This document shows positions 18,650 through 40,718 of a stretch of 64,000 bases of DNA, piece by piece. Position numbers and translations under genes: made by a program. Within the stretch, counting starts at the first letter, position 1; the number at the start of each line of letters is the position of its first letter. Under the pieces are notes generated by a model. That model saw only the letters and a program-made list of their open reading frames with translations. It made no database searches and was not told where the DNA came from. This DNA comes from Marinobacter sp. DY40_1A1 (GTDB taxonomy: Bacteria; Pseudomonadota; Gammaproteobacteria; Pseudomonadales; Oleiphilaceae): positions 372,001-436,000 of the forward strand of contig NZ_VCHA01000004.1 in assembly GCF_016597815.1 (NCBI RefSeq), written 5' to 3'.

Positions 18650-20116
18650 TCAGGTGGTCAGCAATCTCATAAAGTTCTGATAGTCCTCGCGGATACCAGG
18701 ATCTGTTTCCTGAAGCTCCACAATTTTCTTGCACGCATGCAAAACGGTGGTGTGATCTCGACCACCAAACGCATCGCCAATTTCCGGCAAGCTGTGATTC
18801 GTCAGCTCTTTGGACAACGCCATGGCGACTTGGCGGGGCCGGGTTATCACACGAGTGCGCCGCTTGGAATGAAGATCCGCAACTTTGATTTTATAGTACT
18901 CAGCCACCGTACGCTGAATGTTATCTATGCTTACTTGCTTCTCATGCAGGGCAAGCAAGTCTTTCAGGCTTTCCCGAATAAACGGCGGCGTAATTTCCGA
19001 GCCGGTGAAGTGAGCATTCGCTATCACCAAACGAAGCGCGCCTTCGAGCTCTCGCACGTTTGATCGTATTTTCTGGGCGATAAAAAAAGCGGCTTCGCTG
19101 CTTAATTTAACATTGGTTTGCTCAGCCTTTTTCATCAGAATCGCAACCCGCGTTTCCAGCTCAGGGGGCTCAACCATCACTGTAAGCCCCCAGCCAAAGC
19201 GGGACTTTAGACGCTCTTCCATATCCACGATTTCTTTCGGAAACCGGTCACAGGTTACGATGACCTGCTGCCCACCTTCCAGCAACGCATTAAAGGTATG
19301 AAAGAACTCTTCTTGTGAGCGCTCTTTACGGGCAAAAAACTGGATATCATCAATCAGCAAGGCATCGACTGACCGGTAATACCGCTTGAATTCATTGATG
19401 GCGTTCAGCTGCAATGCCTTGACCATATCGGCAACAAATCGCTCAGACCGCAAGTAAGCAACCTTTGCGTTAGGGTTGCGGCGAACAATGTCGTTCCCGA
19501 TTGCGTGCATAAGGTGGGTCTTACCCAAACCCACACCGCCATATAAGAACAGCGGGTTGTATGCACCACCGGGGTTCTCGGCAACCTGCATGGAGGCGGC
19601 TCGTGCGAGTTGGTTCGACTTGCCCTCTACAAAAGTGTCAAACGTAAAGCCCTCGTTCAGAAAGCTCTGGTGCTTGATATCACCCTCTACCTGAACCGGC
19701 CTGCGCCCACCGTTGGATGTGTACTCATTAAGCTGTGCTTGCCGGTTACCGCCTGAAGTTGCTGCAACAACCTTTTCTTCTTCAGTCACCCTGCCACCGG
19801 ACTCTTCCTGAATCCGCTTGCCGGTATCTTGCTTAACCAGTTCGGAGCGCACAACCGGCTCACTTTCCCGGGGAGCTGAGCCTACTTTCATTCCTACTCG
19901 TGGAGCCTGGCCACCGTTTAAATCCTTCAGCACTTCTTCTATACGACGGAGGTACTTCTCATGGACCCAGTCCATCACAAAACGGTTAGGGGCAAACAAC
20001 ATCAGTTGCCCTTCCCGATGATCAGACTGAAGAGGCCTGAGCCAGGTATTGAACTGTTGTGCGGGAAACTCATCCCGGAGTACTTCAAGACATTGATGCC
20101 ACAGTCTGTTCGGCAC
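18650..20116 (-). CDS. dnaA: Chromosomal replication initiator DnaA
   Basis: A 488-residue initiator that binds DnaA boxes and melts the origin. The N-terminal domain I reads [14 protein letters not shown], followed by a variable linker. The AAA+ domain has Walker [16 protein letters not shown] near residue 198 and Walker [11 protein letters not shown]. Domain IV ends with the DNA-recognition [16 protein letters not shown] prefer the GTG start (protein MPNRLWHQ...) because GGGAG stands nine bases before it; an ATG eight codons upstream and a longer frame have poorer sites. The gene faces away from the origin-like intergenic region and leads the dnaA-dnaN-kinase unit. Confidence 0.97.
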
Positions 20117-25015: not shown

Positions 25016-27329
25016 ATGGATATTTTTAATAGCAGAAACGTCTTTTTTAGCCCATCTATTCGCCCGAGTGGCGCCTTTCCAAGAGTATTTCTTTGGCTAA
25101 CGCTGATCATGGTGCCGTTACTGGCGTCCTGTGGCGGGGACAACGATAACAGTAATAATACAGCTCCCGCGGCGCTCTCGATTAGCTCGCAGCCAACCAG
25201 TCAAACTGTAACAGAAGGTTCGGGTGTCCGATGACAACGGATCTGTTGATAGCGCTGCGGCCATCCTGACGGTAAATGCCGCATTGGCTGCGCCGACAAT
25301 TACAACTCAGCCTTTGGTGCAGTCAGTTGAACAAGGCCAAAAGGCCACTTTCACGGTGACTGCAGGGGGCGCTGCTCCATTAAGCTATCAGTGGCAACGG
25401 GACAATATAGATATTGCAGGTGCCAACGCTGCCAGCTATACCACTCCCGTGCTCACCCTTGCAGCGGACGACGGCGCTGTTTACAGAGTGATTGTGACCA
25501 ACCCGGTGAATAGCGTTACCAGCAGCGATGCCGTAATTACAGTTACCCAAACACTTTTGGCCTGTTCGGGCGGTGCGCAAGCTGGCTGGTGCTGGATAGA
25601 ACCCAAACCCCATGGCAATACCCTCCGAGATGTTGAATATCTGGGCGCAGATGTATTCGTGGCGGCCGGTGGCGGTGGCGTATTCATGCGCTCCACTGAC
25701 GGCGGTGCCACATGGAGCACCAGTTTTGCCATCGGTAGCAGTGTTAACGCCATGCATTTTGTCAGCAGCACCTTAGGATATGTAGTGGGTGATAGGGGGT
25801 TTATCGCTCGTACTGATGATGGCGGGCAGACCTGGTTGCCTCAGATAAGCACCGTAGAAACCACCCTGCACGAAGTACACTTCTTTGACGCGAACCTGGG
25901 GCTCGCCGTTGGCGATTCCGGGACTATTCTTCATACCACCGACGGTGGCAGCACCTGGACACCGATCACAGTTCCGGCGTTTGGGCACGCTTTTGGAGTG
26001 AGTTTTGCTGATGCCGATGTTGCCATGATTGTGGGTTCAGGCGGTGCCCGCCTGCGTTCTGTCGACGGTGGCGCCAGCTGGAACCGGATTGATATACCGG
26101 CTGGCTGTCAGACCTGCACTCTGATAAGCGTCACTTTCACCAGCGCCACCACCGGTTTTGCCGTTGGTGACATATCGAGCTCATTGATGCGCACTGACGA
26201 TGCCGGCCAAACCTGGACGAAGGTGCCGGGAATTAATGCTGCAGGAGGGAGTGCCGACTGCAGATTGGAAGATATCAGATTTTCAGGTACCAATGCCCTG
26301 GCTGTATCCACCTGCGGTTCTGTTACACGTTCCACGGATGGAGGAATAACCTGGACCAAATTCCCGGCGGGCGGTAGCAGGTTGGAAACCACCACTTTCG
26401 GCGTCGCGTTCGGTACGGGCTCCGCTGTGGCGGTGGCAGTGGGGGGTGAAGGTCAGATCTACCGCACCACCAATGGGGGAACAAGCTGGACCAGTATATT
26501 CCCTGAACGTGTGCCACAGGACTTCTATAACGTGTATTACAAAAATGCCAGTACGGCTTACATTCTGGGCAGCACAAGCTATAAGTCAACCGATAGCGGG
26601 CTCACATGGGTTGAGGATTCATCGCTACCTAGCGGGCAGAGAGCGATGGCTTCAACCAATGCGGGACTGTTTACTGCGGGGGGCAGTCAAAGTATCTTCC
26701 AATCGGACGATGGGGGACTTAACTGGAGCCGCGTTCTTGCTGTGCCGTCTGGTTCCGATCTTTTCACCAATTTTTACTTTTTCAACTCCATGATTGGTTA
26801 CGCCTATGGTGACGGGGCAACTGTTAAAACAATAGATGGGGGTCTTACCTGGACTTATGTGTTTGGTGGAAGAAACCCCATCGTCGGAATCCATTTTTAT
26901 ACCAACCAGGTTGGTGTGATGGTGAACATTAGAGGCATTTATCGCACCGTAAACGGGGGAGCAAGCTGGTCCGAAGTCCAACGCTCCCTGAAGCGCCTTG
27001 CAGGTGCTGCATTCTCGGGTAATCGTGGGGTTGTCGTTGTCTCTAATGGCTCCGTGTATAGATCATCTGATCAAGGAGCAACGTGGATTGAGGCTACCGG
27101 AGTGACTACCGAAATCTTCAGAGGGGTAGGAAGTAACCCATCCGGCACTTTATCTATCGCCTACACCGAGTCGGGCAACATGCTGAAGAGTGTGGATGGC
27201 AGCAGCTGGAGCAAACTTGCATCGCCAGTGGGTGGCCGGATCAACATGCTCAGTTACTATAACGACTCGTTAGGCATTGCAGTTGGTGATGATGGGGTTA
27301 TCTTGCGCACAACGACCGGAGGGGAATAA
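25016..27329 (+). pseudogene. Frameshifted lipoprotein with Ig-like and Asp-box (BNR/YCF48-like) repeats
   Basis: The first frame (25016-25234) encodes a lipoprotein signal (lipobox LLASC, Cys at residue 39) and the beginning of an Ig-like repeat (LSISSQPTSQTVTEGS), then stops. The second frame (25224-27329) begins with the end of such a repeat (SDDNGSVDSAAAILTVNA), has one complete Ig-like repeat, and then about 13 Asp-box repeats of the type S-T-D-G-G-x-T-W, a beta-propeller. Together they look like one surface lipoprotein that lost about 50 residues of one Ig repeat out of frame. The second frame could start at GTG 25224 but would lack any export signal. A real deletion and a collapsed repeat in the assembly are both possible. 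Substrate and role are unknown. Confidence 0.75.
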
Positions 27330-28226: not shown

Positions 28227-28544
28227 TTATTGCTTGCTGTAATAAGCAGCCATGTCCGCAATATCTTCATCGGTCAGATTCCTCGCCTGCGGTGTCATAA
28301 CCGCCGACATTCCTCCGTTGCGTTCGCCGGCACGATAAGCCTTAAGGGCCATCTCAAGATATGCCGGTGCCTGGCCAGCAAGGTTGGGGTAGATCGGGGC
28401 TGTGGATTGGCCGTCAACACCGTGGCAGGCAACGCACGTGGTGATTTTTTTTGTAATTGCTTCAGCATCTGCTGCGATTGCCGGCAGAGCAAAGGTGCCA
28501 AGGATAATGCCAGTCAGCGCGTGCTTTCTCAGTACCGTTTTCAT
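28227..28544 (-). CDS. Small periplasmic class I cytochrome c
   Basis: A 105-residue exported monohaem cytochrome. A Sec signal peptide (residues 1-22, ending AIAA) is followed by the haem site CVACH near residue 33 and an axial-ligand region around GGMSAVMTPQ near residue 80; the C-terminus DEDIADMAAYYSKQ is typical of cytochrome c553/c4-type domains. The start is MKTVLRKH, with GGAG seven bases upstream; the longer frame is not supported. It is divergent from the molybdoenzyme operon, and a consensus FNR/Anr box lies about 110 bp before its start. It could be an electron carrier for the adjacent oxidoreductase, which is an inference from position. Confidence 0.92.
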   Translation of the reverse strand: MKTVLRKHALTGIILGTFALPAIAADAEAITKKITTCVACHGVDGQSTAPIYPNLAGQAPAYLEMALKAYRAGERNGGMSAVMTPQARNLTDEDIADMAAYYSKQ

Positions 28545-28650: not shown

Positions 28651-28664
28651 TTGACGTGTATCAA
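28651..28664. promoter_or_regulatory. FNR/Anr box
   Basis: TTGACGTGTATCAA matches the FNR/Anr consensus TTGAT-N4-ATCAA at 9 of 10 defined bases. On the minus strand a CATACT -10-like element lies about 20 bp beyond it, giving the class II activator layout for the cytochrome c gene. It is about 270 bp before the molybdoenzyme operon, so control of that side is less certain. Confidence 0.72.
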
Positions 28665-28934: not shown

Positions 28935-31709
28935 ATGGGAATGTGGAAGCTTAAGCGCCGCGATTTCCTCAAGGGTTTGGGCGCAACGGGTACTGGGGTC
29001 ATGCTCAGTGGCAATGTTTGGGCGTTGAACCGGCTACAGCCAATAGAAGACACCCTGGCCACAGAATACCCGTACCGTGACTGGGAAGACCTGTATCGCA
29101 ATGAGTGGACATGGGACAGCGTTGGCCACGCGGCACACTGCATTAACTGTATGGGTAACTGCGCCTGGGACGTGTACGTTAAAGACGGCATCGTTATCCG
29201 CGAAGAGCAGATTGCCAAATACCCACAGGTTCACGAGAACATCCCCGATGCCAACCCCCGCGGTTGCCAGAAAGGCGCGATTCACTCCACTTCCATGTAC
29301 GAAGCGGATCGCCTGCGCTATCCGTTGAAGCGTGCCGGCGAGCGCGGCGAGGGTAAATGGCAGCGTATTTCCTGGGATCAGGCCACGGAAGAAGTGGCGG
29401 ACAAGATTATCGATATTTTTGTCAAACACGGCCCCGGCAAACTCAAGACTCACCAGGGTTCCGGCAACCAGACCATGGTTCGCCAGTCTGGCCCCGCGCG
29501 TTTCGCAGCTCTGGTGGGTGGTATCCAGCTCGACGGCTTTACCGTGGTGGGCGATCTGTTGACTGGTGCGCACCTGGCCTACGGCAACCCGCTGGAGAGT
29601 TTCACCTCGGATGCCTGGTTTGACGCCGATTACATTATGCTCGGCATGATCAACCCCAATGCCACCCGTATTCCGGATGCCCACTATATATGGGAAGCCA
29701 AGTACAACGGCGCACGCATCACCAGTACCTCACCGGATTACAACCCCAGTGCCATTCACACCGACTTGTGGATGCCCATTGAGCAGGGGTCGGACCCGTT
29801 CCTGGCGATGTCCTTTGTTAACGTGATCCTGGAAGAGGGGCTGTATAAATCTGACTTCATTAAAGAGCAGACCGACCTGCCCATGCTGGTGCGCAGGGAT
29901 AACGGCAACCTGTTGCGAGAGTCAGACCTGGTAGAAGGGGGTTCTGATGAGGTGTTCTACCACTGGGATCTGAACACCAATAAAGCGGTAAAAGCCAAAG
30001 GCTCCATGGGTGACGATGATAAAACCCTAAAGCTCGGCGACGTGGACCCGGCCCTTGAAGGTACCTTTACGGTAGAGCAAGGCATCAAAGTTACTACGGT
30101 ATTTGAACAGGTTAAACAGGAAGCGGCGAAGTACACGCCGGAGAAAACCCGGGAACAGACCGGCATTCATCCGGACATTGTGCGCCAGGAAGCCCGCCAT
30201 CTGGCCAAGGCGAAGAAAGCCATCATCATGTTGGGCTACATCACCTCCAGCTACTCCAACTGCCTGTATACCTGCTGGGGCTATGCCCTGACGCTGGCAT
30301 TGACCGGGCATGGTGGTCGTACCGGTGGTCTGGATACCTCCTGGGTTGTTTGGAACCACCCGCGCTGGAGCGAACTGGCAGGCTTTGAAGGCAAGAAATC
30401 AGCCCGTCTGGAAGCCGGTGGTTTGGGTGAGTTTTTGCGTGGCGGCATGATGGAAGGCGCCCGCAAACACTTTGACAACAAAAAGCTCAAAAAACGTGTC
30501 GGCTTCGATCTCGATGAGATGGAAGAGATGATGAACGAGTCCATGGAAAAGGGTTGGATGCCGTATTACGGTGAAATCAAAGGCATGATTTCTATTGCCG
30601 ACAACACCTTCCGCCGCAACAAGATGAGCAAGAAGTACCGCGAAGAGCACTTGCGCCAGGCGGAAGAGCTTTACGTGAATATCAACGTGCGCATGGACTC
30701 CACCGCGGAATGGGCCGACTACGTGCTGCCTGCGGCCAGCCACTATGAAGCTTGGGACATCCGTACCCAGGGCTATCACCGCTTCGCCAACATCTTTACC
30801 CGCTCGGTTGAGCCGGTGGGTGAGTCCAAACCCGACTGGGAAATCATGGCGCTGCTCACCAAGAAGATTCAGGAACGCGCCATTGCCCGTGGCATAGGCC
30901 CGATCCAGGATGGTGATGTAACCCGTGATCTGCATACCATTCACGACGACTTTACCCGCCAGGGCACACTGAACACAGACTACGATGTGCTCAAACACAT
31001 CATCGAAGATTCCCCGGAGTTTGGTGGCGTCACCATTGAAGAAGCCGCGGAAAAGGGCTTCATCGTGATGAACGAACATGCGGGCCTGAACCAGCCATTG
31101 AAGCCGGATGAAGGCTATAACCCCTTCACCGCGCAAACTGATGGTAAGAAGCCCTATGAAACCCTGACAGGTCGTATCACCTTCTTCTGTGACCACCCCT
31201 GGTTCAAGAAGCTGAACTCCACCGTACCCACAGCGCGTTTGCACGCTGGGCCCAAGGCCTCCAACTACCCGTTGGAATTCTATTCGCCCCACGCCCGCTG
31301 GGGTATCCACTCCAACTGGCGCAGTAACAAGTACCTGCTGCGCTTGCAGCGAGGCGAGCCGAACATCTATATCAACCCGCAGTTGGCTGAGCAGCGGGGT
31401 ATCAAGGACGGTGACACGGTTAGGTTGTTCAACGCCAACGGCGACTTTTATGCCCAGGCAAAGTTCTATCCGAGCATTCCGGTGAACTCCATCATGATGG
31501 AGCACGGCTGGGAGCCCCATCAGTACATCCAGCGCAAAAACATGAACATGTCCAATGCCGTGTTCCTGCAGCCGCTGGAACTGGCGGGCGGCTGGGGTCA
31601 CCTGCAGTTTATCTACGCCAAATGGAATGCCAACCAGCATATTCATGAAAGCTGCTACGACATTGAGCTGGCAAAACATGAAGACATCACCGACCCACGA
31701 GCCGTTTAA
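28935..31709 (+). CDS. Type II DMSO-reductase-family molybdoenzyme, catalytic alpha subunit (Ddh/Ser/Clr/Ebd-like)
   Basis: A 924-residue periplasmic molybdopterin oxidoreductase. The N-terminus KRRDFLKG is a twin-arginine export signal. A Fe-S ligand set H-x3-C-x2-C-x3-C followed by PRGCQKG lies near residues 70-120. The TVVGDLLTG segment near residue 200 supplies the aspartate expected as Mo ligand in type II enzymes. The C-terminal dinucleotide-binding domain ends near QFIYAKWNANQHIHES. Length fits dimethylsulfide dehydrogenase, selenate and chlorate reductase alphas (about 914-918) better than ethylbenzene dehydrogenase (about 976). The start has GAGGAG. Downstream genes run alpha-beta-chaperone-gamma. 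The class is secure; the substrate is unassigned, with a dimethylsulfide dehydrogenase-like role my best guess. Confidence 0.88.
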   Translation: MGMWKLKRRDFLKGLGATGTGVMLSGNVWALNRLQPIEDTLATEYPYRDWEDLYRNEWTWDSVGHAAHCINCMGNCAWDVYVKDGIVIREEQIAKYPQVHENIPDANPRGCQKGAIHSTSMYEADRLRYPLKRAGERGEGKWQRISWDQATEEVADKIIDIFVKHGPGKLKTHQGSGNQTMVRQSGPARFAALVGGIQLDGFTVVGDLLTGAHLAYGNPLESFTSDAWFDADYIMLGMINPNATRIPDAHYIWEAKYNGARITSTSPDYNPSAIHTDLWMPIEQGSDPFLAMSFVNVILEEGLYKSDFIKEQTDLPMLVRRDNGNLLRESDLVEGGSDEVFYHWDLNTNKAVKAKGSMGDDDKTLKLGDVDPALEGTFTVEQGIKVTTVFEQVKQEAAKYTPEKTREQTGIHPDIVRQEARHLAKAKKAIIMLGYITSSYSNCLYTCWGYALTLALTGHGGRTGGLDTSWVVWNHPRWSELAGFEGKKSARLEAGGLGEFLRGGMMEGARKHFDNKKLKKRVGFDLDEMEEMMNESMEKGWMPYYGEIKGMISIADNTFRRNKMSKKYREEHLRQAEELYVNINVRMDSTAEWADYVLPAASHYEAWDIRTQGYHRFANIFTRSVEPVGESKPDWEIMALLTKKIQERAIARGIGPIQDGDVTRDLHTIHDDFTRQGTLNTDYDVLKHIIEDSPEFGGVTIEEAAEKGFIVMNEHAGLNQPLKPDEGYNPFTAQTDGKKPYETLTGRITFFCDHPWFKKLNSTVPTARLHAGPKASNYPLEFYSPHARWGIHSNWRSNKYLLRLQRGEPNIYINPQLAEQRGIKDGDTVRLFNANGDFYAQAKFYPSIPVNSIMMEHGWEPHQYIQRKNMNMSNAVFLQPLELAGGWGHLQFIYAKWNANQHIHESCYDIELAKHEDITDPRAV

Positions 31710-31721
31710 GAGGAGATAATC

Positions 31722-32702
31722 ATGACTGTTAAACGCCAACTCAGCATGGTCCTGGATCTGAACAAATGCATCGGCTGCCAGACCTGCACCGCAGCCTGCA
31801 AACTCATGTGGACCAACCGCAACGGCCGTGAGTTCATGTACTGGAACAACGTGGAATCCCAACCCGGTAAAGGCTACCCGCGGGATTACGAGAATATGGG
31901 CGGTGGTTTCGACGCCGACGGCGCTTTGCGCCTGGGGCGCCAGCCCAGCCAGGAAGACTATGGTATTCCCTGGGAGTACAACTACGAAGACGCGTTGATG
32001 ACCGGCACCGACCCCTGGTTGCGCCCCAATGTGAAACCCACCTGGGGTGCCAACTGGGACGAAGATGAAGGTGAGGGAGACTACCCCAACAGCTACTACT
32101 TCTACCTGCCGCGCCTGTGTAACCACTGCGCCAACCCGGCGTGCCTGGCGGCCTGCACCCGCAACGCCATCTACAAGCGCCAGGAAGACGGCATTGTGCT
32201 GGTGGATCAGGAACGCTGCCGGGGCTACCGCTACTGCGTAAATGCCTGCCCGTACAAGAAAATCTACTTCAACGAGGAGATTTCAAAATCCGAGAAGTGT
32301 ATTTTCTGTTACCCGCGGATTGAAAAAGGCCTGCCCACCGCCTGTGCACAACAGTGTGTAGGGCGCATCCGCTGGATAGGCTATCGCGACGATGAAGACG
32401 GCCCGATTCACAAGCTGGTGGAAAAATACAAGGTGGCCTTGCCGCTGCACGCAGAATGGGGCACGCAGCCCAACGTGTTCTACGTGCCGCCCATGTCGCC
32501 GCCCAAGTTTGGTGAAAACGGCGAACAGCTGGATGAGTCCCGCATACCCCTGTCGTATCTTGAGAGTCTGTTTGGCCCCCGCACCGGCGAAGTGCTGGAC
32601 ACTTTGGCGGATGCCCGCCAGGCGAAAGCCGATGGCAGAGGCAGCGAACTTATGGACATCCTGATTGGCTACAAACACTCTGAAATGTTCAAACTGAGCT
32701 GA
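31722..32702 (+). CDS. Type II molybdoenzyme beta subunit, four-cluster ferredoxin-like protein
   Basis: A 326-residue electron-transfer subunit with four cysteine groups: CIGCQTCTAAC near residue 16, CNHCANPACLAAC near 130, CRGYRYCVNAC near 165 and CIFCYPRIEKG...CAQQC near 190-210. The tyrosine in CRGYRYC replaces a cysteine, as the aromatic residue does in NarH, so this group probably holds a [3Fe-4S] cluster. It has no signal peptide and is presumably exported bound to the Tat-bearing alpha subunit. It begins 12 bp after alpha with AGGAG. It resembles DdhB/SerB/ClrB/EbdB throughout. Confidence 0.92.
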   Translation: MTVKRQLSMVLDLNKCIGCQTCTAACKLMWTNRNGREFMYWNNVESQPGKGYPRDYENMGGGFDADGALRLGRQPSQEDYGIPWEYNYEDALMTGTDPWLRPNVKPTWGANWDEDEGEGDYPNSYYFYLPRLCNHCANPACLAACTRNAIYKRQEDGIVLVDQERCRGYRYCVNACPYKKIYFNEEISKSEKCIFCYPRIEKGLPTACAQQCVGRIRWIGYRDDEDGPIHKLVEKYKVALPLHAEWGTQPNVFYVPPMSPPKFGENGEQLDESRIPLSYLESLFGPRTGEVLDTLADARQAKADGRGSELMDILIGYKHSEMFKLS

Positions 32703-32718
32703 CGCCCGGAGGCATGCA

Positions 32719-33462
32719 ATGACGCAATTAGCAGCGCCCGCTGTCCGGCAGCATGAACGGGAGTTCGCCGAGGCGCGCGGGGCTATCTATCGGCTTGCCG
32801 CCGTGGCCCTGAGCTATCCCATGGAAGAAACCTGGGAAGCTCTCACCGATGGACGCCTGCAAGAGGCGCTCAACGAAGCCTGGCAAACGCTGGGTGGCGA
32901 ACCCTGGCCCAGGTTTGAATCAAGCCCGACTTCGCAAGATCTGCAAGTGGGTTACATGGCCACGTTTGTGCACGGTAAGCGGGGTAAACCCAGAGTGCCA
33001 TTGGTGGCCAGTGCCTACGACAGCCTGGTAGGCGGTCTGACACCTGGCGCCTATCTACTGAATGTTCAGGCATTTTATACCCACTTTGGGCTAACAGCGG
33101 CAGTGGACGACGAAGGTCACAAAGATCAGCCTGATCACCTTATAGCGATGCTGGAGTTCTGCGCACTGCTGTGCCATCTGGAGGTTCAGGCACTGGAAAA
33201 CCAGCGGGATGCTGCGCCTTACCGTCGTGCTCAACGGGATTTTCTGGTGCGATACCTCAGGCCCCTCCTGCAAACCATTCGCGCAAAATACGCCCATGAA
33301 AATCAGCACGGTCTGGATGCCAATCTGGCTCATTTGGTGAAGGTGCTCCCGGACTGGACCCGCACCCAACAACTGGCGCTGGAAAATCAGGTAGGGCCAT
33401 GCCCCGAAGAAGGGGCACGAAAAGCAGGCCCCGAAACCACCAGCCAGCCCATGTGGGACTGA
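32719..33462 (+). CDS. TorD/DmsD-type molybdoenzyme assembly chaperone
   Basis: A 247-residue all-helical cytoplasmic protein of the TorD/NarJ-like chaperone superfamily, corresponding to DdhD/SerD/ClrD. It would hold the alpha subunit until Mo cofactor insertion and Tat export. Family-like features are RGAIYRLAAVALSYP near residue 20, a central DHLIAMLEFCALLCHLE helix near 138 and a conserved-looking FLVRYLRPLL near 173. It follows the beta subunit by 16 bp. The position between beta and gamma matches ddhABDC, serABDC and clrABDC, not ebdABCD. Confidence 0.87.
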   Translation: MTQLAAPAVRQHEREFAEARGAIYRLAAVALSYPMEETWEALTDGRLQEALNEAWQTLGGEPWPRFESSPTSQDLQVGYMATFVHGKRGKPRVPLVASAYDSLVGGLTPGAYLLNVQAFYTHFGLTAAVDDEGHKDQPDHLIAMLEFCALLCHLEVQALENQRDAAPYRRAQRDFLVRYLRPLLQTIRAKYAHENQHGLDANLAHLVKVLPDWTRTQQLALENQVGPCPEEGARKAGPETTSQPMWD

Positions 33463-33492
33463 ACCCAACCGATTAGCATGAGGAACCATGCC

Positions 33493-34323
33493 ATGACATC
33501 GAAAAACATCGAAAACGGTCGCCTGGCAAAGAGTATTGGCCGGCTAACCGGCACGCTAACCCTGGCGGCCTGCATCCTGGCAAGCAGCAACCTACTGGCT
33601 GATCACACCGATAGGAACCCGAACGTGAGTGAGGTAAAAGCCTGGGATACGGTGAAAGTTTCTCGCATTCCTGATGGCATATACTTGCGTACCCAAAACG
33701 ACCCGGACGACCTGATTTGGGATCGCTTACCAAAGTATCGAACCAACCTGTTACCGGCACCCCCGGTACATCAGTCGGTTGGCCTGCGTTTTGACGAAGG
33801 CTCCACACGTGGCAAGCATGTGTATTTCCAGATAGCCCGTTCGGATGAGCGTTTATACATTCGCCTGCATTGGAAAGATGCCAGCGAAGACCGAGCCACC
33901 ACCGTAGACACATTTAGTGATGGTGTGGCGGTGCAGTTTGCACTGAAGGATGTGGATACCTCATACATGATGGGGACTGATCACGAGAACCCTGTAAACA
34001 TCTGGTATTGGCGCGCCGATACGGACAAAGTGGAGAATCTGGCCGCGGGTGGCTATGGCAGCACCACCACCTTGCCCCAACAGAGCGTGAAAGGCGCCAG
34101 CGCCTACGTGACCAGCGACGTTCCGCAAAAGAGGGAGTGGCAAGTGGTGATGTCGCGGCCGTTCAAATCTGATGGCGAGTACGATGTGGATTTTGATCGT
34201 GAAACCATACCTATGGGCTTTGCTGTATGGCAGGGTAACGACAGCGAACGCGATGGCAACAAACGCGTAACCCACACCTGGATCCTGCTGGACACAAGCC
34301 TGAATGGCAGTACCAAGAACTAA
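33493..34323 (+). CDS. Type II molybdoenzyme gamma subunit, haem b protein (EB_dh domain)
   Basis: A 276-residue exported protein with a Sec-type signal peptide ending near NLLA-DH (residue 35) and an ethylbenzene-dehydrogenase-type gamma domain. In characterised relatives one haem b is held by Met and Lys; candidate ligands here are in SYMMGTD near residue 160 and GNKRVTHTW near 260. The NPVNIWYW motif is typical. Of two ATGs, the second (MTSKN) has AGGAA seven bases before it and is preferred. This subunit would pass electrons from the Fe-S chain to a periplasmic acceptor such as a cytochrome c. Confidence 0.88.
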   Translation: MTSKNIENGRLAKSIGRLTGTLTLAACILASSNLLADHTDRNPNVSEVKAWDTVKVSRIPDGIYLRTQNDPDDLIWDRLPKYRTNLLPAPPVHQSVGLRFDEGSTRGKHVYFQIARSDERLYIRLHWKDASEDRATTVDTFSDGVAVQFALKDVDTSYMMGTDHENPVNIWYWRADTDKVENLAAGGYGSTTTLPQQSVKGASAYVTSDVPQKREWQVVMSRPFKSDGEYDVDFDRETIPMGFAVWQGNDSERDGNKRVTHTWILLDTSLNGSTKN

Positions 34324-34333
34324 GGAGCCTTAG

Positions 34334-35425
34334 ATGGCGGTTTCCCATTTTCCCGGTCGTGACCCACTGGCTCTGGTGCCGGAAGATTGCGGGCGTGGCC
34401 ATGCCTGCCAGTTCTGCCCAGAAGAAGAGCAGTGCAAGCTGGACAAGGGGCAGCACGAAAAACGTCTGATTGAATCCCGCCTTGCGCAGATTGGCCAGAT
34501 TATTATGGTCATGGCCAACAAAGGCGGCGTGGGTAAAAGCACCGTGTCGGCCAACGTAGCTGCAGGGCTTGCAGCTCAAGGATATCGGGTAGGAGTGGCG
34601 GATGCCGACATCCATGGCCCAAATCAAAGCCGGTTTTTCGGTTTTGTGGGTCAGCGCGTGCGCCTGGGCAAACAGGGTTTGCCACCAAAGGATTTTGAGT
34701 TTTTTGGTCTGGAGTACCCGGTAAAGGTTGGTTCTTTGGCCTTCATGATGGAAAGGGACGACACCCCCATTGTCTGGCGGGATGCTTACAAGCACGACTT
34801 CATGCACCACCTGATTGGCTCATTCGATTGGGGACCGCTGGATTTTCTGGTAATCGATATGCCGCCGGGCACAGGCAACGAACTGATTACCCTGGCAGAT
34901 ATGCTTGAAGGCCATGATGTAGCCGCATTACTGGCCACGACACCCCAGGAAGTGGCGTTGATGGACAGCCTCAAAGCCGTGCGTTTTTGCCAGGAGCGTG
35001 GCATGCCAATGATTGGCGTGGTGGAAAATATGGCGGGCGTAACCTGCCCCCACTGCAGTGGGCATTTTCATGTATTCCCCCGCTCTCATCTGGCGGATGC
35101 TCTGGCAGCAGCCGATGTGGCATCTGTGGCACAAATCCCCTTGTCGCTGGCATTGTCCAGTGGCTCTGATACCGGAATACCAATTGTGCTTTCAGAACCT
35201 GAAGGCCCGGAAGCACAAGCATTCGCACCGGCCGTCGACGCTTGTGTAGCACACGCCAAGGCGGGTTTTGCTGACGCCGCAAAGCAATCCCTGCATGGGC
35301 TTGCACAGGCCAGCCTGGAAAGCGACGAACTTGAGCAGGCGCTGGGAGCCGTTCCACCAGAACAACGAGACGCCCTGCGCCAACAACTGGAATCCTTGCT
35401 GGGTAACAGTAACGAGCCTTCCTGA
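34334..35425 (+). CDS. Mrp/Nbp35-like Fe-S cluster carrier ATPase with N-terminal cysteine cluster
   Basis: A 363-residue P-loop ATPase of the Mrp/ApbC/Nbp35 family, cytoplasmic. The deviant Walker A is NKGGVGKST near residue 64, with DADIHGP near 94 and VIDMPPGTGNE near 175. The inter-subunit CxxC that holds a bridging [4Fe-4S] in this family is present as CPHC near 240. An additional N-terminal cysteine set, C19-x5-C25-x2-C28-x5-C34, ends in the same C-x2-C-x5-C spacing as eukaryotic Nbp35. It starts 10 bp after the gamma subunit, so it is in the operon and probably serves Fe-S maturation of the molybdoenzyme (inference). The C-terminal 50 residues are an acidic extension. Confidence 0.87.
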   Translation: MAVSHFPGRDPLALVPEDCGRGHACQFCPEEEQCKLDKGQHEKRLIESRLAQIGQIIMVMANKGGVGKSTVSANVAAGLAAQGYRVGVADADIHGPNQSRFFGFVGQRVRLGKQGLPPKDFEFFGLEYPVKVGSLAFMMERDDTPIVWRDAYKHDFMHHLIGSFDWGPLDFLVIDMPPGTGNELITLADMLEGHDVAALLATTPQEVALMDSLKAVRFCQERGMPMIGVVENMAGVTCPHCSGHFHVFPRSHLADALAAADVASVAQIPLSLALSSGSDTGIPIVLSEPEGPEAQAFAPAVDACVAHAKAGFADAAKQSLHGLAQASLESDELEQALGAVPPEQRDALRQQLESLLGNSNEPS

Positions 35426-35450
35426 CCCACTCATATTCGAGAGAATTGCC

Positions 35451-37322
35451 ATGACTGACACTCGCGCGCCGGAACGCCGTCGTTTTTTTCGCCAGCTTTT
35501 AGGCACAGATAATGCCAGTCAACCCGGCCGCGCTCCCTGGCACCGGGTACCGGAAGTCGGTGCCGGCGATGGCGACGTGCTCTGGTCGGGCTGGACCGGC
35601 AATGGCGAGCTGTTTGTTGTGGGCGATGAAGGCATGGTATTGCGCTATACCAGCAGCGCCGATGCCGGCGGCGCGCAATGGCAGCACATGGCAGTGCCAA
35701 CGCGCCTGCCGTTGCACGGTATTTGGGGGCCTGCTGCTGATAATCTTTATGCCGTGGGCTGGATGGGCGCTCTGTTGCACTTCGATGGCGCACAATGGCA
35801 GCTGCTGCGGGGTGGGGTGATAGATGAAAAGGGTGGCCGATTTGCTGCCTGTAAAGAAAACACGCCCCTGTTTGCCATCGACGGTAACGATCAGGGCATG
35901 GCTTGGGCCGTGGGTGACGATGGCGTAATTCTGCATTTTGACGGTGCCAACTGGCAGTCCGAGCAGAGTCCAACCCAGGTTAATCTGCGGGCAGTCGCCT
36001 GTGGACCCAATAACACCGTTTACGCCGCTGGTGGCGAAGGCACTGTGCTCCACCGTGACAGCGAAGGGTTGTGGACAAAACTCGATTGCCCCTTGGGTTC
36101 CGGATTTCATGCCTTGCTGGTAATGGACGATGGTAGCTTGCTGTTAGGCGGTGGTCGGTATTTTGTTAATCAGGGCGGCTTTCGTGGAGAACTGGTGCGT
36201 TATCAGAACGGCCAGTTTCAGGCTCTCAAATTTGATGAGCCCATGCCGCGCCTGAGATCGCTCAAAGCCTATAAAGGCGGTGTGCTGATTGTTGGCGACC
36301 AGGGTCATTTGTACTACTTCAAGGATTTGCGCCTCGACAAGCTGGAGAGCAACAGCCATCACGATCTGATGGATATTATCCTGCTGTCTACAGGCGAGGC
36401 ACTGGTGGTCGGTGATTTCGGCACCATCATGACGGCTGCCGAAGATTTCACCCAGGCACTGGCACCGCCGCCCATGGCCGCCGCGGCCAGCCCCTGGCAA
36501 ACCATGGTTGTGCCCACCGAAAACCAACTCTGGGGCATTACCGAAGGCCCGGACGGCACCTGTTATGCCTGTGGCGAAGCCGGCACAGTGATACGCCTGC
36601 GAGGTGGCAGCTGGGAGTTGTTACCGGCCCCCAGCGAATTGGCGGTGCATTGTTTGTGGGATACCGGGGCAGGGCTGTTTGCCGCCGGACAACTGGGGCG
36701 TATCTATCGCTTCGATGGCCAGCAGTGGGCATTGCACTATGATCTGAATCTGGATCTCACCATTCTTGGCATGTGGGGCAGCAGCCCTGAATCTCTTTAT
36801 GCCGTGGGCGATGAAGGTCTGATTCTGCATTTCGACGGCTTGCGCTGGCAGCGGATGCCCAGTGGCACTCAGTCTGCCCTGTACAGTCTATGGGCCATGG
36901 ATGACGAGCACATGCTGGCCCCCGGCGACTTCGGGCTGGTGTTGAGACACAACGGCAAAGACTGGAGTGAGTTCAATGTGGGCACCGAGAATTTCCTTTA
37001 TGGAATCTGGGGCGACAGCTTGAGCAATATCTACGCCGTTGGGCTGTCGGGCACCCTGGCACATTTCAATGGCCAGCGTTGGCAGCAAATGGCTACGCGC
37101 CTGCGGGAAGACCTGCTGGCGATATCCGGTTCAGATGCCGCAGGGGCTTTCGCTGTGGGTACCCGGGGCTGTGTCCTGCGACTCGATCGTGATCAGTGGG
37201 TAACAGAGGTAAGTGGCAGCGATGCCGGTTTACGGGCGGTTTGTGCTACCCGCAGTGGAGCAGTTTATGCAGTAGGTGATCGGGGAACTGTGTTGTGCCG
37301 CAACGGAAAAACGGGGCATTAA
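35451..37322 (+). CDS. Beta-propeller repeat protein (YCF48/BNR-like), last gene of the molybdoenzyme operon
   Basis: A 623-residue protein made almost wholly of about 14 repeats of the type A-V-G-x-x-G-x-x-L-x-x-F-D-G-x-x-W, each 38-50 residues, enough for two seven-bladed propellers. It begins 25 bp after the Nbp35-like gene, with GAGAG upstream. The N-terminus ERRRFFRQLLG resembles a twin-arginine motif, but no hydrophobic segment follows, so it is probably cytoplasmic unless carried by a partner. The YCF48/HCF136 fold assists photosystem II assembly in chloroplasts; by analogy an assembly role for the molybdoenzyme is conceivable but unproven. I do not recognise a named homologue in type II operons. 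Confidence 0.8.
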   Translation: MTDTRAPERRRFFRQLLGTDNASQPGRAPWHRVPEVGAGDGDVLWSGWTGNGELFVVGDEGMVLRYTSSADAGGAQWQHMAVPTRLPLHGIWGPAADNLYAVGWMGALLHFDGAQWQLLRGGVIDEKGGRFAACKENTPLFAIDGNDQGMAWAVGDDGVILHFDGANWQSEQSPTQVNLRAVACGPNNTVYAAGGEGTVLHRDSEGLWTKLDCPLGSGFHALLVMDDGSLLLGGGRYFVNQGGFRGELVRYQNGQFQALKFDEPMPRLRSLKAYKGGVLIVGDQGHLYYFKDLRLDKLESNSHHDLMDIILLSTGEALVVGDFGTIMTAAEDFTQALAPPPMAAAASPWQTMVVPTENQLWGITEGPDGTCYACGEAGTVIRLRGGSWELLPAPSELAVHCLWDTGAGLFAAGQLGRIYRFDGQQWALHYDLNLDLTILGMWGSSPESLYAVGDEGLILHFDGLRWQRMPSGTQSALYSLWAMDDEHMLAPGDFGLVLRHNGKDWSEFNVGTENFLYGIWGDSLSNIYAVGLSGTLAHFNGQRWQQMATRLREDLLAISGSDAAGAFAVGTRGCVLRLDRDQWVTEVSGSDAGLRAVCATRSGAVYAVGDRGTVLCRNGKTGH

Positions 37323-37411: not shown

Positions 37412-39520
37412 ATGTTGTTTTATCGGATAGCCATGGGTGCGGCCTGCAGCGCGCTTGTTTTCAATACGGCGGCACAAGCGCAACCTGCGGAGCTGAATGA
37501 GCTGGTGGTAACCGCCTCCGGCTTTGAACAAAGCCAGTCTGCTGCGCCTGCCAGTATTACTGTTATTTCCGGTGAAGAGATCCGTAGCAAACAAGCGTTC
37601 AGTCTTACGGATATTCTGGATGACGTGGAAGGCCTGGATGTCAGTGGCTCTGCCGGTAAAACTGGCGGTTTCGATATACGCATGCGTGGCATGCCCTCAG
37701 AATACACCTTGATTCTGATTGATGGTCGCAGGCAGAACACCGCTGGCAGCGTAACCCCTAATGGTTTTGGCCAGACCGCAACAAGCTTCCTGCCGCCCCC
37801 TTCCGCAATTGAACGCATTGAAGTTGTACGTGGTCCCATGTCGACCCTTTACGGATCTGACGCCATGGGTGGTGTTATCAACATCATCACCCGCAAAGTT
37901 GGCCCGGAATGGGCATCTACCCTCACAGCAGAAACGACACTCAACCAGGACAGTGATTTTGGTAACAGCCGAGCCTATAGCGCCTATACCAATGGACCGC
38001 TGGTGGACGACCTGATTGGCTTTCAGCTGCGTGGTCGCTGGTTTGAGAGGGATGAGTCCAAACTGGAATATCTGGACTTGAACGGCGATCCGATTGAAGT
38101 CAGCACCCGAGGGCCGAGCCCGGTTGAGTCTGAACAGTATACGGTTGGTGGTCGCTTTACTGTAACGCCCGGAGAGTCGAATGACCTTTGGTTGGATATC
38201 GAAAGCAGCAAACAGGATTACGATAACTCAGAAGGGCAATTGGGTACCTTGGGCGTAAAAGGTTACAAACCGGAGCTGGAGTTCGATCGTGACCAGTTTG
38301 CTGTGGGCCACACTGGTCGGTTCGATATCGGCACGCTGGAAACCAGCATCATGAGAAATGTGACGGAAACCATCGGCCGGGTTATTCCCGAAGGTGTGCC
38401 CGGGAAGACGCCGGGGTCTGACCGGGAACTGAAAACGGAAAACCGTGTAATCGACAGTAAGTTGGTAATGCCATTAGCCAATCACGTGGTGACAGTCGGC
38501 GGTCAGTGGCTTGATGCACGGATGATCGATGGCGTCGCAACGGACGAATTCAAGCAGAAAACCCAAGCCCTGTTCGTAGAAGACGAGTGGTTCCTGGCCG
38601 AGGATCTCGCCCTGACTCTGGGTGGCCGGTATGACCACCATGATTCGTTTGGTGGCCAGTTCAGCCCACGAGCCTATCTTGTGTGGAACTCTACACCCGA
38701 GCTAACGGTTAAAGGTGGCGTAAGCCGAGGTTACAAAACACCAGGCCTTGAGCAGTTGGCCCCCGGCGTTATCGGTTTTACCGGGCAGGGCACCATCCCA
38801 CTGTTCGGGAACCCGGATTTGAAACCCGAGAAATCAACATCAACGGAACTGGCAGTGATCTACGAAAAGCCGGCGGGCTACCGGGTGGGTGCAACGGTGT
38901 TCTACAACGAGTTCACTGACAAAATTGCAGAAGGCCCCGACCTGCTGAACTGCAGTTATGCACAAGATCCAAACCGACCCGGCTGTGTTGATAGGGGTAA
39001 CTGGCCTCTGGCGGATGTGTTTGGCCAGGACCTGAACATTGATGAAGCCATTACCCAGGGCGTGGAGCTGCATGGCTCAGTGCCGTTCGCGCAGGATTGG
39101 CGTCTGGGTGCAAACTACACATACACCGACAGCGAGCAAAAATCCGGAGAGAATAAAGGCGAGCCGCTTACTGATACACCGGAGCATATGGCGAATATTT
39201 CCTTGCGCTGGGTGCCTTCCGTTCGCTGGTCAGCCTTTGTGAAGGCCCAGTACGAAAGCGAGCGTTACCGTGCGCGGGACAGGATCAGAGGGGCTGCTTC
39301 GTATGCAGACCTGGGTGATTTCAAATCCGTTACCCTTGTGCACCTGGGTGGCCAGTATCAGGCTTCAGAAAACCTGGGTTTCAGTGCCACCATATATAAC
39401 CTTCTGGATGAAGACTTTATCGAGTATCAGGCCTATGACAACGGCGCCCAATACGGAAACCTCTACGCCAACTCGGAAGAAGGTCGGCGTTTGTGGGTGT
39501 CTGCAACCTACTCATTCTGA
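37412..39520 (+). CDS. TonB-dependent outer membrane receptor, ferric-siderophore type
   Basis: A 702-residue outer membrane barrel with a signal peptide ending AQAQP near residue 25. The TonB box is near NELVVTAS, the plug domain shows SLTDILDDVEGLDVSG, RMRGMPSEYTLILIDGRR and RIEVVRGPMSTLYGSDAMGG, and the C-terminus ends in SATYSF with the terminal Phe required for BAM insertion. The plug pattern resembles FepA/IrgA-like receptors. A likely Fur box precedes it, so it should be induced by iron limitation. The start ATG has AGGAGG at good spacing. The ligand cannot be assigned; copper or haem receptors are alternatives. Confidence 0.92.
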   Translation: MLFYRIAMGAACSALVFNTAAQAQPAELNELVVTASGFEQSQSAAPASITVISGEEIRSKQAFSLTDILDDVEGLDVSGSAGKTGGFDIRMRGMPSEYTLILIDGRRQNTAGSVTPNGFGQTATSFLPPPSAIERIEVVRGPMSTLYGSDAMGGVINIITRKVGPEWASTLTAETTLNQDSDFGNSRAYSAYTNGPLVDDLIGFQLRGRWFERDESKLEYLDLNGDPIEVSTRGPSPVESEQYTVGGRFTVTPGESNDLWLDIESSKQDYDNSEGQLGTLGVKGYKPELEFDRDQFAVGHTGRFDIGTLETSIMRNVTETIGRVIPEGVPGKTPGSDRELKTENRVIDSKLVMPLANHVVTVGGQWLDARMIDGVATDEFKQKTQALFVEDEWFLAEDLALTLGGRYDHHDSFGGQFSPRAYLVWNSTPELTVKGGVSRGYKTPGLEQLAPGVIGFTGQGTIPLFGNPDLKPEKSTSTELAVIYEKPAGYRVGATVFYNEFTDKIAEGPDLLNCSYAQDPNRPGCVDRGNWPLADVFGQDLNIDEAITQGVELHGSVPFAQDWRLGANYTYTDSEQKSGENKGEPLTDTPEHMANISLRWVPSVRWSAFVKAQYESERYRARDRIRGAASYADLGDFKSVTLVHLGGQYQASENLGFSATIYNLLDEDFIEYQAYDNGAQYGNLYANSEEGRRLWVSATYSF

Positions 39521-39564
39521 GACACATCAATCGCTGATATGAGAATTTGACGGTCGTCAATTTT

Positions 39565-39588
39565 GCTGCCGGTAATTGTGCCGGCAGC
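39565..39588 (+). terminator. Terminator after the TonB receptor
   Basis: A perfect 8-bp stem GCTGCCGG/CCGGCAGC with an eight-base loop is followed by TTTCAAATTATTT. Confidence 0.72.
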
Positions 39589-39662
39589 TTTCAAATTATT
39601 TACAAAAATTAACCTTCTGCTAGCTTGGTAACAGTAAATCCTGTTAATGAGAGAGCAGAAAG

Positions 39663-40718
39663 ATGAAACGGCAAACACTGAAGCTTGCTATCGCTGTCAG
39701 CCTTGGCCTTACCGCAGGAGCAGCCATGGCTGCCGACTTGCAGGATCGTGCGCGGGACATGTTTTCGGCGATACCCCAGTACCCACCGGTTATCGATGGC
39801 AACGAACTGACGGAAGCGAAAGTTGAGCTTGGTAAGATGTTGTTTTTTGAGCCCCGTCTGTCCGCAAGCCATCTGATCAGCTGCAATACCTGCCACAACG
39901 TGGGTATGGGTGGACACGATTACCTTCCTGTCTCTATTGGCCACGGTTGGCAGAAAGGGCCACGCAACTCGCCTACAGTCTTTAATGCTGTCTTCAACGC
40001 CGCCCAGTTCTGGGATGGCCGCGCGGCGGACCTCGCGGAGCAGGCTAAAGGGCCGGTTCAGGCGGGCGTTGAGATGAGCAGCACGCCAGAGCGCGTTGTG
40101 AAGACATTGACCAGCATGCCAGCCTATGTTGAGAAGTTTGGTCAAGCCTTTCCCGGTGAGGATGATCCGGTAACCTTTAACAACATGGCCATTGCGATCG
40201 AAGCGTATGAAGCCACGCTGATTACGCCAGATGCCGATTTTGACAAGTTCCTGCGCGGCGATAAAACAGCCTTGAACGAGCAGGAGCAAGAAGGTTTGGC
40301 ACTGTTCATGGATAAGGGCTGTGTGGCCTGCCATGCGGGCGTTAACCTTGGCGGCCAGGAATACTATCCGTTTGGCCTGGTAACCAAGCCTGGTGCCGAT
40401 ATTCTGCCCACCGGTGACAAAGGCCGGTTTGCGGTTACCGAGACGGCCTCGGATGAGTACGTATTCCGTGCTTCACCCTTGCGAAATATTGAGCTCACAG
40501 CCCCTTATTTTCACTCAGGCGCCGTTTGGAGCCTGGAAGAGGCGGTTGCAGTTATGGGTACCGCTCAGTTGGGAGCAGAGCTGAATGATGATGAAGTAAA
40601 ATCTATCACCGCTTTCCTGAAAACCCTGACCGGCAAAATACCGGAAGTGCGCTACCCGGAGTTGCCGCCAAGCACAGACAGCACCCCGAAACCAGAATCA
40701 ATGGTGCTGGCTCAGTAA
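39663..40718 (+). CDS. Di-haem cytochrome c peroxidase-family protein (CcpA/MauG superfamily)
   Basis: A 351-residue periplasmic protein. The signal peptide (residues 1-24, ending AMA-AD) is followed by two haem c sites, CNTCH near residue 77 and CVACH near 220. The order and the segment PRNSPTVFNAVFNAAQFWDGRAADL are typical of bacterial cytochrome c peroxidases, which reduce hydrogen peroxide with electrons from small cytochromes. The C-terminal LRNIELTAPYFHSGAVWSLEEAV supports that call. It is separated from the TonB receptor by a terminator and read alone. The small cytochrome c at 28227 is a possible donor (inference). Confidence 0.93.
   Translation: MKRQTLKLAIAVSLGLTAGAAMAADLQDRARDMFSAIPQYPPVIDGNELTEAKVELGKMLFFEPRLSASHLISCNTCHNVGMGGHDYLPVSIGHGWQKGPRNSPTVFNAVFNAAQFWDGRAADLAEQAKGPVQAGVEMSSTPERVVKTLTSMPAYVEKFGQAFPGEDDPVTFNNMAIAIEAYEATLITPDADFDKFLRGDKTALNEQEQEGLALFMDKGCVACHAGVNLGGQEYYPFGLVTKPGADILPTGDKGRFAVTETASDEYVFRASPLRNIELTAPYFHSGAVWSLEEAVAVMGTAQLGAELNDDEVKSITAFLKTLTGKIPEVRYPELPPSTDSTPKPESMVLAQ

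Follow-up and report, generated by a model that had tools for sequence, protein, structure and literature searches.

A DdhA-type molybdoenzyme operon of Marinobacter and its regular companions, an Nbp35-like ATPase and a predicted double beta-propeller

Introduction

Among type II enzymes of the dimethyl sulfoxide (DMSO) reductase class, the alpha-beta-D-gamma gene order is shared by the dimethyl sulfide (DMS) dehydrogenase of Rhodovulum sulfidophilum, whose operon is reportedly described as ddhABDC, and by the chlorate reductase ClrABDC of Ideonella dechloratans. We analysed a 64,000-nucleotide stretch of Marinobacter sp. DY40_1A1 (contig NZ_VCHA01000004.1, positions 372,001 to 436,000; hereafter the window), in which an operon of this layout continues into genes for an Nbp35-like P-loop ATPase and a predicted double beta-propeller.

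A similar extension may have been seen before in a chlorate-reducing bacterium. In Pseudomonas stutzeri PDA, Clark et al. in 2016 reportedly gave the names clrE and clrF to two genes without a known function, mutants of which are said to have fitness defects on chlorate; we presume that these are the last two genes of the present operon. A literature search for the names clrE and clrF found no chlorate paper. One publication reports that Stutzerimonas chloritidismutans AW-1 reduces chlorate (PMC6299022), and a 2003 paper deals, by its title, with the chlorate reductase of this strain.

The NUBPL family of P-loop NTPases includes Nbp35, ApbC and Mrp and is marked by a CPHC motif and, in Nbp35, by four N-terminal cysteines. 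A literature search for ApbC together with molybdoenzyme found nothing, and it is, to our knowledge, largely an open question how exported molybdoenzymes that need several Fe-S clusters acquire them ahead of twin-arginine translocation (Tat). A review describes the ferredoxin NapF of Escherichia coli as a cytoplasmic partner of an exported molybdoenzyme; it adds that Fe-S reconstitution of NapA in vitro required NapF and that the two proteins form a complex (PMC10609526). The names ApbC and Mrp do not occur in its text.

An operon of six genes

Six plus-strand open reading frames (ORFs), separated by 12, 16, 15, 10 and 25 bp in order, span positions 28935-37322 of the window. Together with their family matches, they agree with the sequence-only reading of this DNA, which had described tightly spaced genes for alpha, beta, chaperone, gamma, ATPase and propeller, the first four in the ddh/ser/clr-type order. 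The alpha, beta and gamma products also scored above the cut-offs of curated models, supporting the proposed DMSO reductase type II class: the catalytic alpha subunit (28935..31709) matched TIGR03479 with 1231 bits (cut-off 985), the Fe-S beta subunit (31722..32702) TIGR03478 with 579 bits (481), and the haem b gamma subunit (33478..34323), which also matched PF09459, TIGR03477 with 198 bits (170). The NarJ/TorD-type chaperone (D or delta; 32719..33462) was over the cut-off for PF02613 (NarJ type) with 66.8 bits and under that for TIGR03482 (141.8 bits against 152.3). The ATPase (34334..35425) matched PF10609, the NUBPL iron-transfer NTPase, with 233 bits. For the sixth gene (35451..37322), the ATG was found by counting inside an ORF listed from 35268, and family matches of its product were weak (PF23366 and PSII_BNR/YCF48).

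Positions expected to hold cofactors are conserved. The alpha subunit, predicted to bind molybdenum bis-molybdopterin guanine dinucleotide and the FS0 cluster, begins with a Tat-type signal, KRRDFLKG. Its residue D207 and the motif HCINCMGNC...GC (H-x3-C-x3-C...C), which we take to be the Mo-ligand aspartate and the FS0 site, align with PcrA, EbdA and ClrA. Fifteen cysteines of the beta subunit are conserved in 66/66 rows. In the gamma subunit, M165 and K262, presumably the haem b ligands as in EbdC, are present in 71/71 rows and also in ClrC.

The last two genes accompany one branch of enzymes

The window alpha was placed in a quick maximum-likelihood tree of 75 alphas, in which several outgroup branches were long and only the inner clade was relied on. 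This tree held no SerA sequence, its DdhA reference was inferred (from genome G516), and the AW-1 alpha was represented by that of locus L015. Sixty-three rows, including the window alpha, formed one clade (approximate likelihood ratio support, SH-aLRT, 100), with Marinobacter rows nearest to the window and purple bacteria among the members. The clade takes in the alpha of G516, a genome from the genus of Rhodovulum imhoffii and probably that of the DdhA organism, R. sulfidophilum, at 68.7% identity to the window alpha. The phylogenetic comparison proposed with the sequence-only reading therefore sets the window alpha with the probable DdhA, and ClrA, EbdA and PcrA outside; the Ideonella ClrA (44.7% identical to the window alpha) is sister to the clade, and EbdA and PcrA lie farther out. 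The alpha-beta-D-gamma order is likewise common to the window and DdhABDC, and in G516, too, the ATPase and propeller genes come after the operon.

An ATPase-first scan of named genomes yielded 78 loci, of which 67 (L007-L073) reached at least 50% identity. All six families were present at 57 of the 67, so that the six-gene set is not due to chance. Broken or split members among the 57 were the beta and propeller genes of L024, the propeller gene of L047 and the alpha and propeller genes of L048; at a further four loci (L013, L014, L057 and L069) the contig runs out before all of the upstream genes are reached. Since sampling of this kind starts from the ATPase, alpha-first surveys were added; most of their genomes are the same as those of the named loci, and only the route of finding differs. 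In Marinobacter, an alpha was found in 7/124 genomes and both genes adjoined it in 7/7 (in G400 the alpha lies in two pieces across two contigs and the propeller is split). The family of Halomonas denitrificans (Halomonadaceae) had an alpha in 16/250 genomes, with both genes beside it in all 15 that could be assessed, the sixteenth being cut by a contig end. In the Rhodovulum family the alpha was present in 3/345 genomes and both genes in 3/3. Wider scans, with an E-value of 1e-150 and two candidates scored per genome, gave lower bounds: at least 7/369 genomes with a type II alpha class-wide and at least 1/398 phylum-wide.

These results bear out the earlier claim that the last two genes belong to the enzyme. 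Related operons consistently without them, the outcome that would have spoken against this claim, were looked for, and the opposite was found. What did not survive is the view of the two genes as a peculiar extension: the DdhA-type clade usually has them, the operons of AW-1 and of the probable R. sulfidophilum among others. The ATPase and propeller are thus a hallmark of this branch of enzymes, not an oddity of the window. The ten alphas compared from outside the clade (L085, L086, L118, L120-L125 and L127) had no propeller in their stretches; at L086 and L127 an ATPase of another kind was present, one that starts with a FeS_assembly_P domain.

Several loci had arrangements of their own. L033 (a gammaproteobacterial metagenome-assembled genome, MAG), L035 (Oceanimonas) and L036 (Oceanisphaera) carry the operon twice in tandem, partly cut by the locus ends, and between the two copies at L035 neither an ATPase nor a propeller gene was observed. 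L086 (5928-16423), on a Halarchaeum plasmid, is an archaeal cluster of a type II alpha, a Rieske protein and cytochrome b, with a P-loop NTPase bearing FeS_assembly_P and DUF2249, a different Mrp-type ATPase next to a type II enzyme. At L061, where the propeller is missing, a DUF2478 protein (10858-11448) is encoded directly 3' of the ATPase; ORFs that read like it form a cluster of seven loci.

A predicted assembly pair for an exported enzyme

The window ATPase has CX5CX2CX5C (34388-34435) before its P-loop and CPHC after it. This spacing differs from that of eukaryotic Nbp35, which we take to be CX13CX2CX5C, and the window ATPase is tied to one operon. The four-cysteine pattern, with the first gap free between 2 and 16 residues, occurred in 80/81 family rows (L076 is the exception) and in 0/4 comparison ATPases, two of them from the window's genome. 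The two next-best ATPases of that 3.86-Mb genome are 35-37% identical and have no N-terminal cysteine motif. The fifth gene product is thus probably, by its motif, an Nbp35-type Fe-S carrier with a predicted cluster-binding site.

For the sixth product, an AlphaFold2 model from a 38-sequence alignment (mean predicted local distance difference test, pLDDT, 90.2) has about fourteen four-stranded blades, as counted from its strands, in two halves joined near residues 330-345; the predicted template modelling score (pTM) of 0.54 leaves the mutual orientation of the halves unfixed. The model fits the 14-repeat double propeller suggested earlier. Derivation from YCF48 photosystem factors was considered but is not supported: matches to that family are weak, and the 50 listed PDB matches are other propellers. 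A second YCF48/BNR-repeat protein, with an Ig-like domain, is encoded at 25224-27329 of the window.

The N-terminus of the propeller carries a twin-arginine (RR) motif, ERRRFFRQLL (35472-35501). The form RRx(F/L)(F/L), in most cases preceded by S, D or E, was found in 61/63 rows, and R9 and R10 did not vary across the 38-row alignment. As for the two rows without it, the L024 frame begins inside the protein and L037 reads ARRQLFRR. No hydrophobic segment follows the motif, the best 13-residue hydropathy in the window protein being -0.42. Values above 0.9 occurred in 3/61 propeller rows, and alpha Tat signals fell below 0.5 in 1/56. The propeller would therefore stay in the cytoplasm. A resembling motif, SRRGILTGRW, stands in the N-terminus of E. 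coli NapF (VKIDASRRGILTGRWR); NapF is a ferredoxin and the window protein a propeller, so that homology is claimed for the motif only.

A comparable pairing was found among distant ATPases. Eleven loci (L074-L084), ten from Planctomycetota, including anammox bacteria, and one from a Nitrospirae MAG, encode such relatives, and in 10/11 a ferredoxin with an N-terminal RR(Q/E)(F/L)FK lies directly upstream of the ATPase. The one that was compared (L083) has Fer4 domains and 31% identity to NapF (E 3e-19). Two Scalindua loci have an NxrA-like gene in the same stretch, so labelled from its length and weak alpha-model scores.

On balance, we consider it probable that the operon encodes both a periplasmic alpha-beta-gamma molybdoenzyme of the DdhA-type clade, exported by Tat, and an assembly line of its own, with a cytoplasmic pair that would load and check Fe-S clusters before export. 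The alpha clade, the metal and haem ligand positions, the gene order, the FNR-like site described below, the cysteine motif and the propeller RR are the part of this proposal read directly from sequence. The NarJ/TorD-like chaperone would hold the Tat signal of alpha in the cytoplasm, while the ATPase, with a [4Fe-4S] cluster on its CX5CX2CX5C and CPHC sites, would fill the clusters of alpha and beta. The propeller, remaining in the cytoplasm, might act as a scaffold or checker joining the ATPase to the apo-enzyme, and so do for this enzyme what NapF does for NapA. Once complete, the alpha-beta unit would be exported, bind gamma and exchange electrons with a small cytochrome c. More tentatively, an Nbp35-type ATPase with an RR-tagged cytoplasmic partner may form a portable module for loading and proofreading the Fe-S clusters of exported molybdoenzymes before export, a generalization that we would not yet call probable. 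The partner would be a NapF-like ferredoxin in anammox and other Planctomycetota and, as its replacement, the double propeller in the DdhA/AW-1 branch; the RR would be a shared docking tag that mimics a Tat signal without leading to export.

Several observations weigh against such an assembly line. Six otherwise complete loci (L061, L062, L065, L066, L070 and L073), from Rhodospira, Thiohalocapsa, Thiorhodococcus, Rhabdochromatium and a gammaproteobacterial MAG, have no propeller beside the ATPase (the L062 stretch stops 0.6 kb past it), and a search of the whole genomes of L061 and L070 found no propeller anywhere. L119 (G120), one of the seven class-wide finds and inside the alpha clade, has neither gene nearby; no propeller was found in its whole genome, and its best ATPase matches are just 34-35% identical. 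The stretch with the Ideonella Clr genes has neither the ATPase nor the propeller, and related enzymes are therefore made without them. As for the propeller itself, the 38-row alignment has no invariant or near-invariant cysteine column, its 50 listed PDB matches are generic propellers, and the NapF-like role is based on a short motif and position. NapF, in turn, is missing from some nap operons and has little effect in E. coli and Wolinella, according to the review (PMC10609526).

On a rival view, the ATPase and propeller share no more than a transcript with the enzyme and have a role unrelated to Fe-S loading, for instance in insertion of the molybdenum cofactor, in sensing metals or in docking to the membrane. 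The weak annotation of the propeller, the DUF2478 gene that adjoins the ATPase in L061 and ORFs of the flanking clusters that look, by eye, like response regulators would suit this view. We regard it as unlikely, given the Nbp35-type cysteine motif, the conserved adjacency and the NapF-like ferredoxin that goes with distant relatives of the ATPase.

If a dedicated loading pair is indeed present, two widely conserved genes gain a testable job, and it becomes clear why the same two genes go with a probable DMS dehydrogenase and a chlorate respirer alike. The evidence suggests that what is new here is the mechanism indicated by the RR motif and the Nbp35-type ATPase, along with the residues in which AW-1 differs from its relatives.

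The substrate and the AW-1 chlorate reductase

Earlier, DMS, another sulfur compound, an oxyanion or a hydrocarbon had been proposed as substrate. DMS or an oxyanion remains in keeping with the data; the hydrocarbon is disfavoured by model scores and the tree. Scores against the NCBIfam EbdA, EbdB and EbdC models were 433 bits for alpha (cut-off 2000), 442 for beta (740) and 70 for gamma (400), and a hydrocarbon is unlikely, with EbdA far below its cut-off and in another branch.

S. chloritidismutans AW-1 has a single type II alpha, 90.3% identical to that of the window. Some 2 kb upstream of this alpha are genes for chlorite dismutase and a small cytochrome c, and a transposase-like ORF. The ATPase and propeller genes of AW-1 are found on another contig (L019); the two contigs share an overlap of 1,638 bases with 99.9% identity, so that AW-1 has the same six genes as the window. 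The clrABDC, clrE and clrF set reported for P. stutzeri PDA is grouped with it here. The L015 alpha is 99% identical to the AW-1 alpha and belongs to one lineage with it, and another Stutzerimonas locus, L172, with the same alpha as L015, was not counted again. An operon of this type probably supplies the chlorate reductase of AW-1.

It is possible, if somewhat doubtful, that the Marinobacter enzyme is likewise a reductase of chlorate or another oxyanion, a second type of Clr with clrE and clrF as helpers. The chlorite dismutase and cytochrome c beside the AW-1 alpha (90% identical) and the chlorate fitness defects reported for clrE and clrF in P. stutzeri PDA would agree with this. On the other hand, both genes also accompany the probable DdhA, and the pair, being present with both enzymes, therefore follows the enzyme branch and not the substrate. 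Chlorite dismutase (PF06778), present in AW-1, was not found in the genome of the window (G000), nor in 7/9 other operon-bearing genomes searched. It occurred in 2/10 operon-bearing genomes in all, and in Tropicimonas (G376) it stands beside a different, divergent alpha on another contig. With none in 8/10, the idea that the clade as a whole serves chiefly in chlorate use is disfavoured.

The divergent Tropicimonas cluster (T. isoalkanivorans, G376:C20, L127:5964-12754) has a type II alpha 26% identical to the window alpha, a beta subunit, a chaperone, a c-type cytochrome, a FeS_assembly_P ATPase and chlorite dismutase, and is of the (per)chlorate type; the genome also has a DdhA-type operon on another contig.

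The alpha subunits of AW-1 and the window also differ close to the presumed Mo ligand. Residues 201-207, which end at D207, read GFTVVGD in the window (29535..29555) and HVAAVGD in AW-1, the difference lying in residues 201-204 (GFTV versus HVAA). Compared with 39 rows (loci L007-L049 and the window; L045-L047 are alphaproteobacterial), AW-1 and L015 differed from all at 14 sites, three of which are residues 201, 202 and 204. Of 368 changes unique to a single one of the 39 rows, 1 fell within residues 201-213; the cluster there has a p of 0.0007, post hoc, as the test was designed after the cluster was seen, and for one lineage. Outside AW-1 and L015, F202 is conserved in 59/61 and T203 in 61/61 clade rows. 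As the AW-1 pocket differs from those of the compared relatives, chlorate is probably a derived substrate in AW-1, and the comparison suggests that the Marinobacter pocket keeps a DdhA-like form. Residues 201-204 may set the substrate. The changed residues of AW-1 offer a concrete marker separating chlorate reductases from look-alikes, useful in genome annotation for the sulfur and chlorine cycles.

The conserved F202 and T203 also bear on whether the window encodes a true DMS dehydrogenase, one that would oxidize DMS to DMSO in the periplasm and pass electrons to cytochrome c, perhaps to feed denitrification in anoxic water. Its alpha shares a clade, and 69% identity, with that of the probable R. 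sulfidophilum, and purple bacteria fall within the clade; the tree has no SerA, and its DdhA reference is inferred. We hold this to be quite possible, though short of probable. Overall, DMS as a donor and an oxyanion as an acceptor are about equally likely substrates of the Marinobacter enzyme, with chlorate less likely as the native one.

Regulation, cytochrome partner and flanking genes

A small monohaem c-type cytochrome (PF00034) is encoded divergently to the operon (28227..28544, minus strand); its start was inferred from an ATG before a signal-like stretch within an ORF that reaches 28664. Homologues were found within 3 kb upstream of alpha in 15/57 loci with enough upstream sequence, in five of them on the strand of alpha. 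The cytochrome is likely the electron partner of the enzyme.

Between the two genes lies TTGACGTGTATCAA (28651..28664), with 1 mismatch to TTGAT-N4-ATCAA, which we take as the FNR/ANR consensus. Such sites, with one mismatch or none, occurred in 20/56 alpha upstream regions, where order-1 shuffles gave an expectation of 0.85. Nineteen of the 20 are gammaproteobacterial (Alcaligenaceae included), and L050 alone is alphaproteobacterial, a point of difference between the window operon and DdhABDC. Some boxes may serve the divergent cytochrome gene. FNR-like control is more typical of terminal reductases; it would suit an anaerobic reductase of chlorate or another oxyanion, and counts to that extent against a DMS dehydrogenase. 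Anaerobic expression would be in keeping with a terminal reductase and equally with an oxidation of DMS that feeds denitrification.

Just downstream of the operon, at 37412-40718, the window encodes a TonB-dependent receptor and then a MauG/MbnH-like di-haem protein, and three more loci from Marinobacter (L007, L008 and L049) likewise have homologues of TonB or MauG on the downstream side. Farther upstream, at 19463-19543, the Rfam model for AsdA, an antisense RNA of dnaA mRNA, matched with 52.7 bits (gathering score 52), which fits a position near the replication origin.

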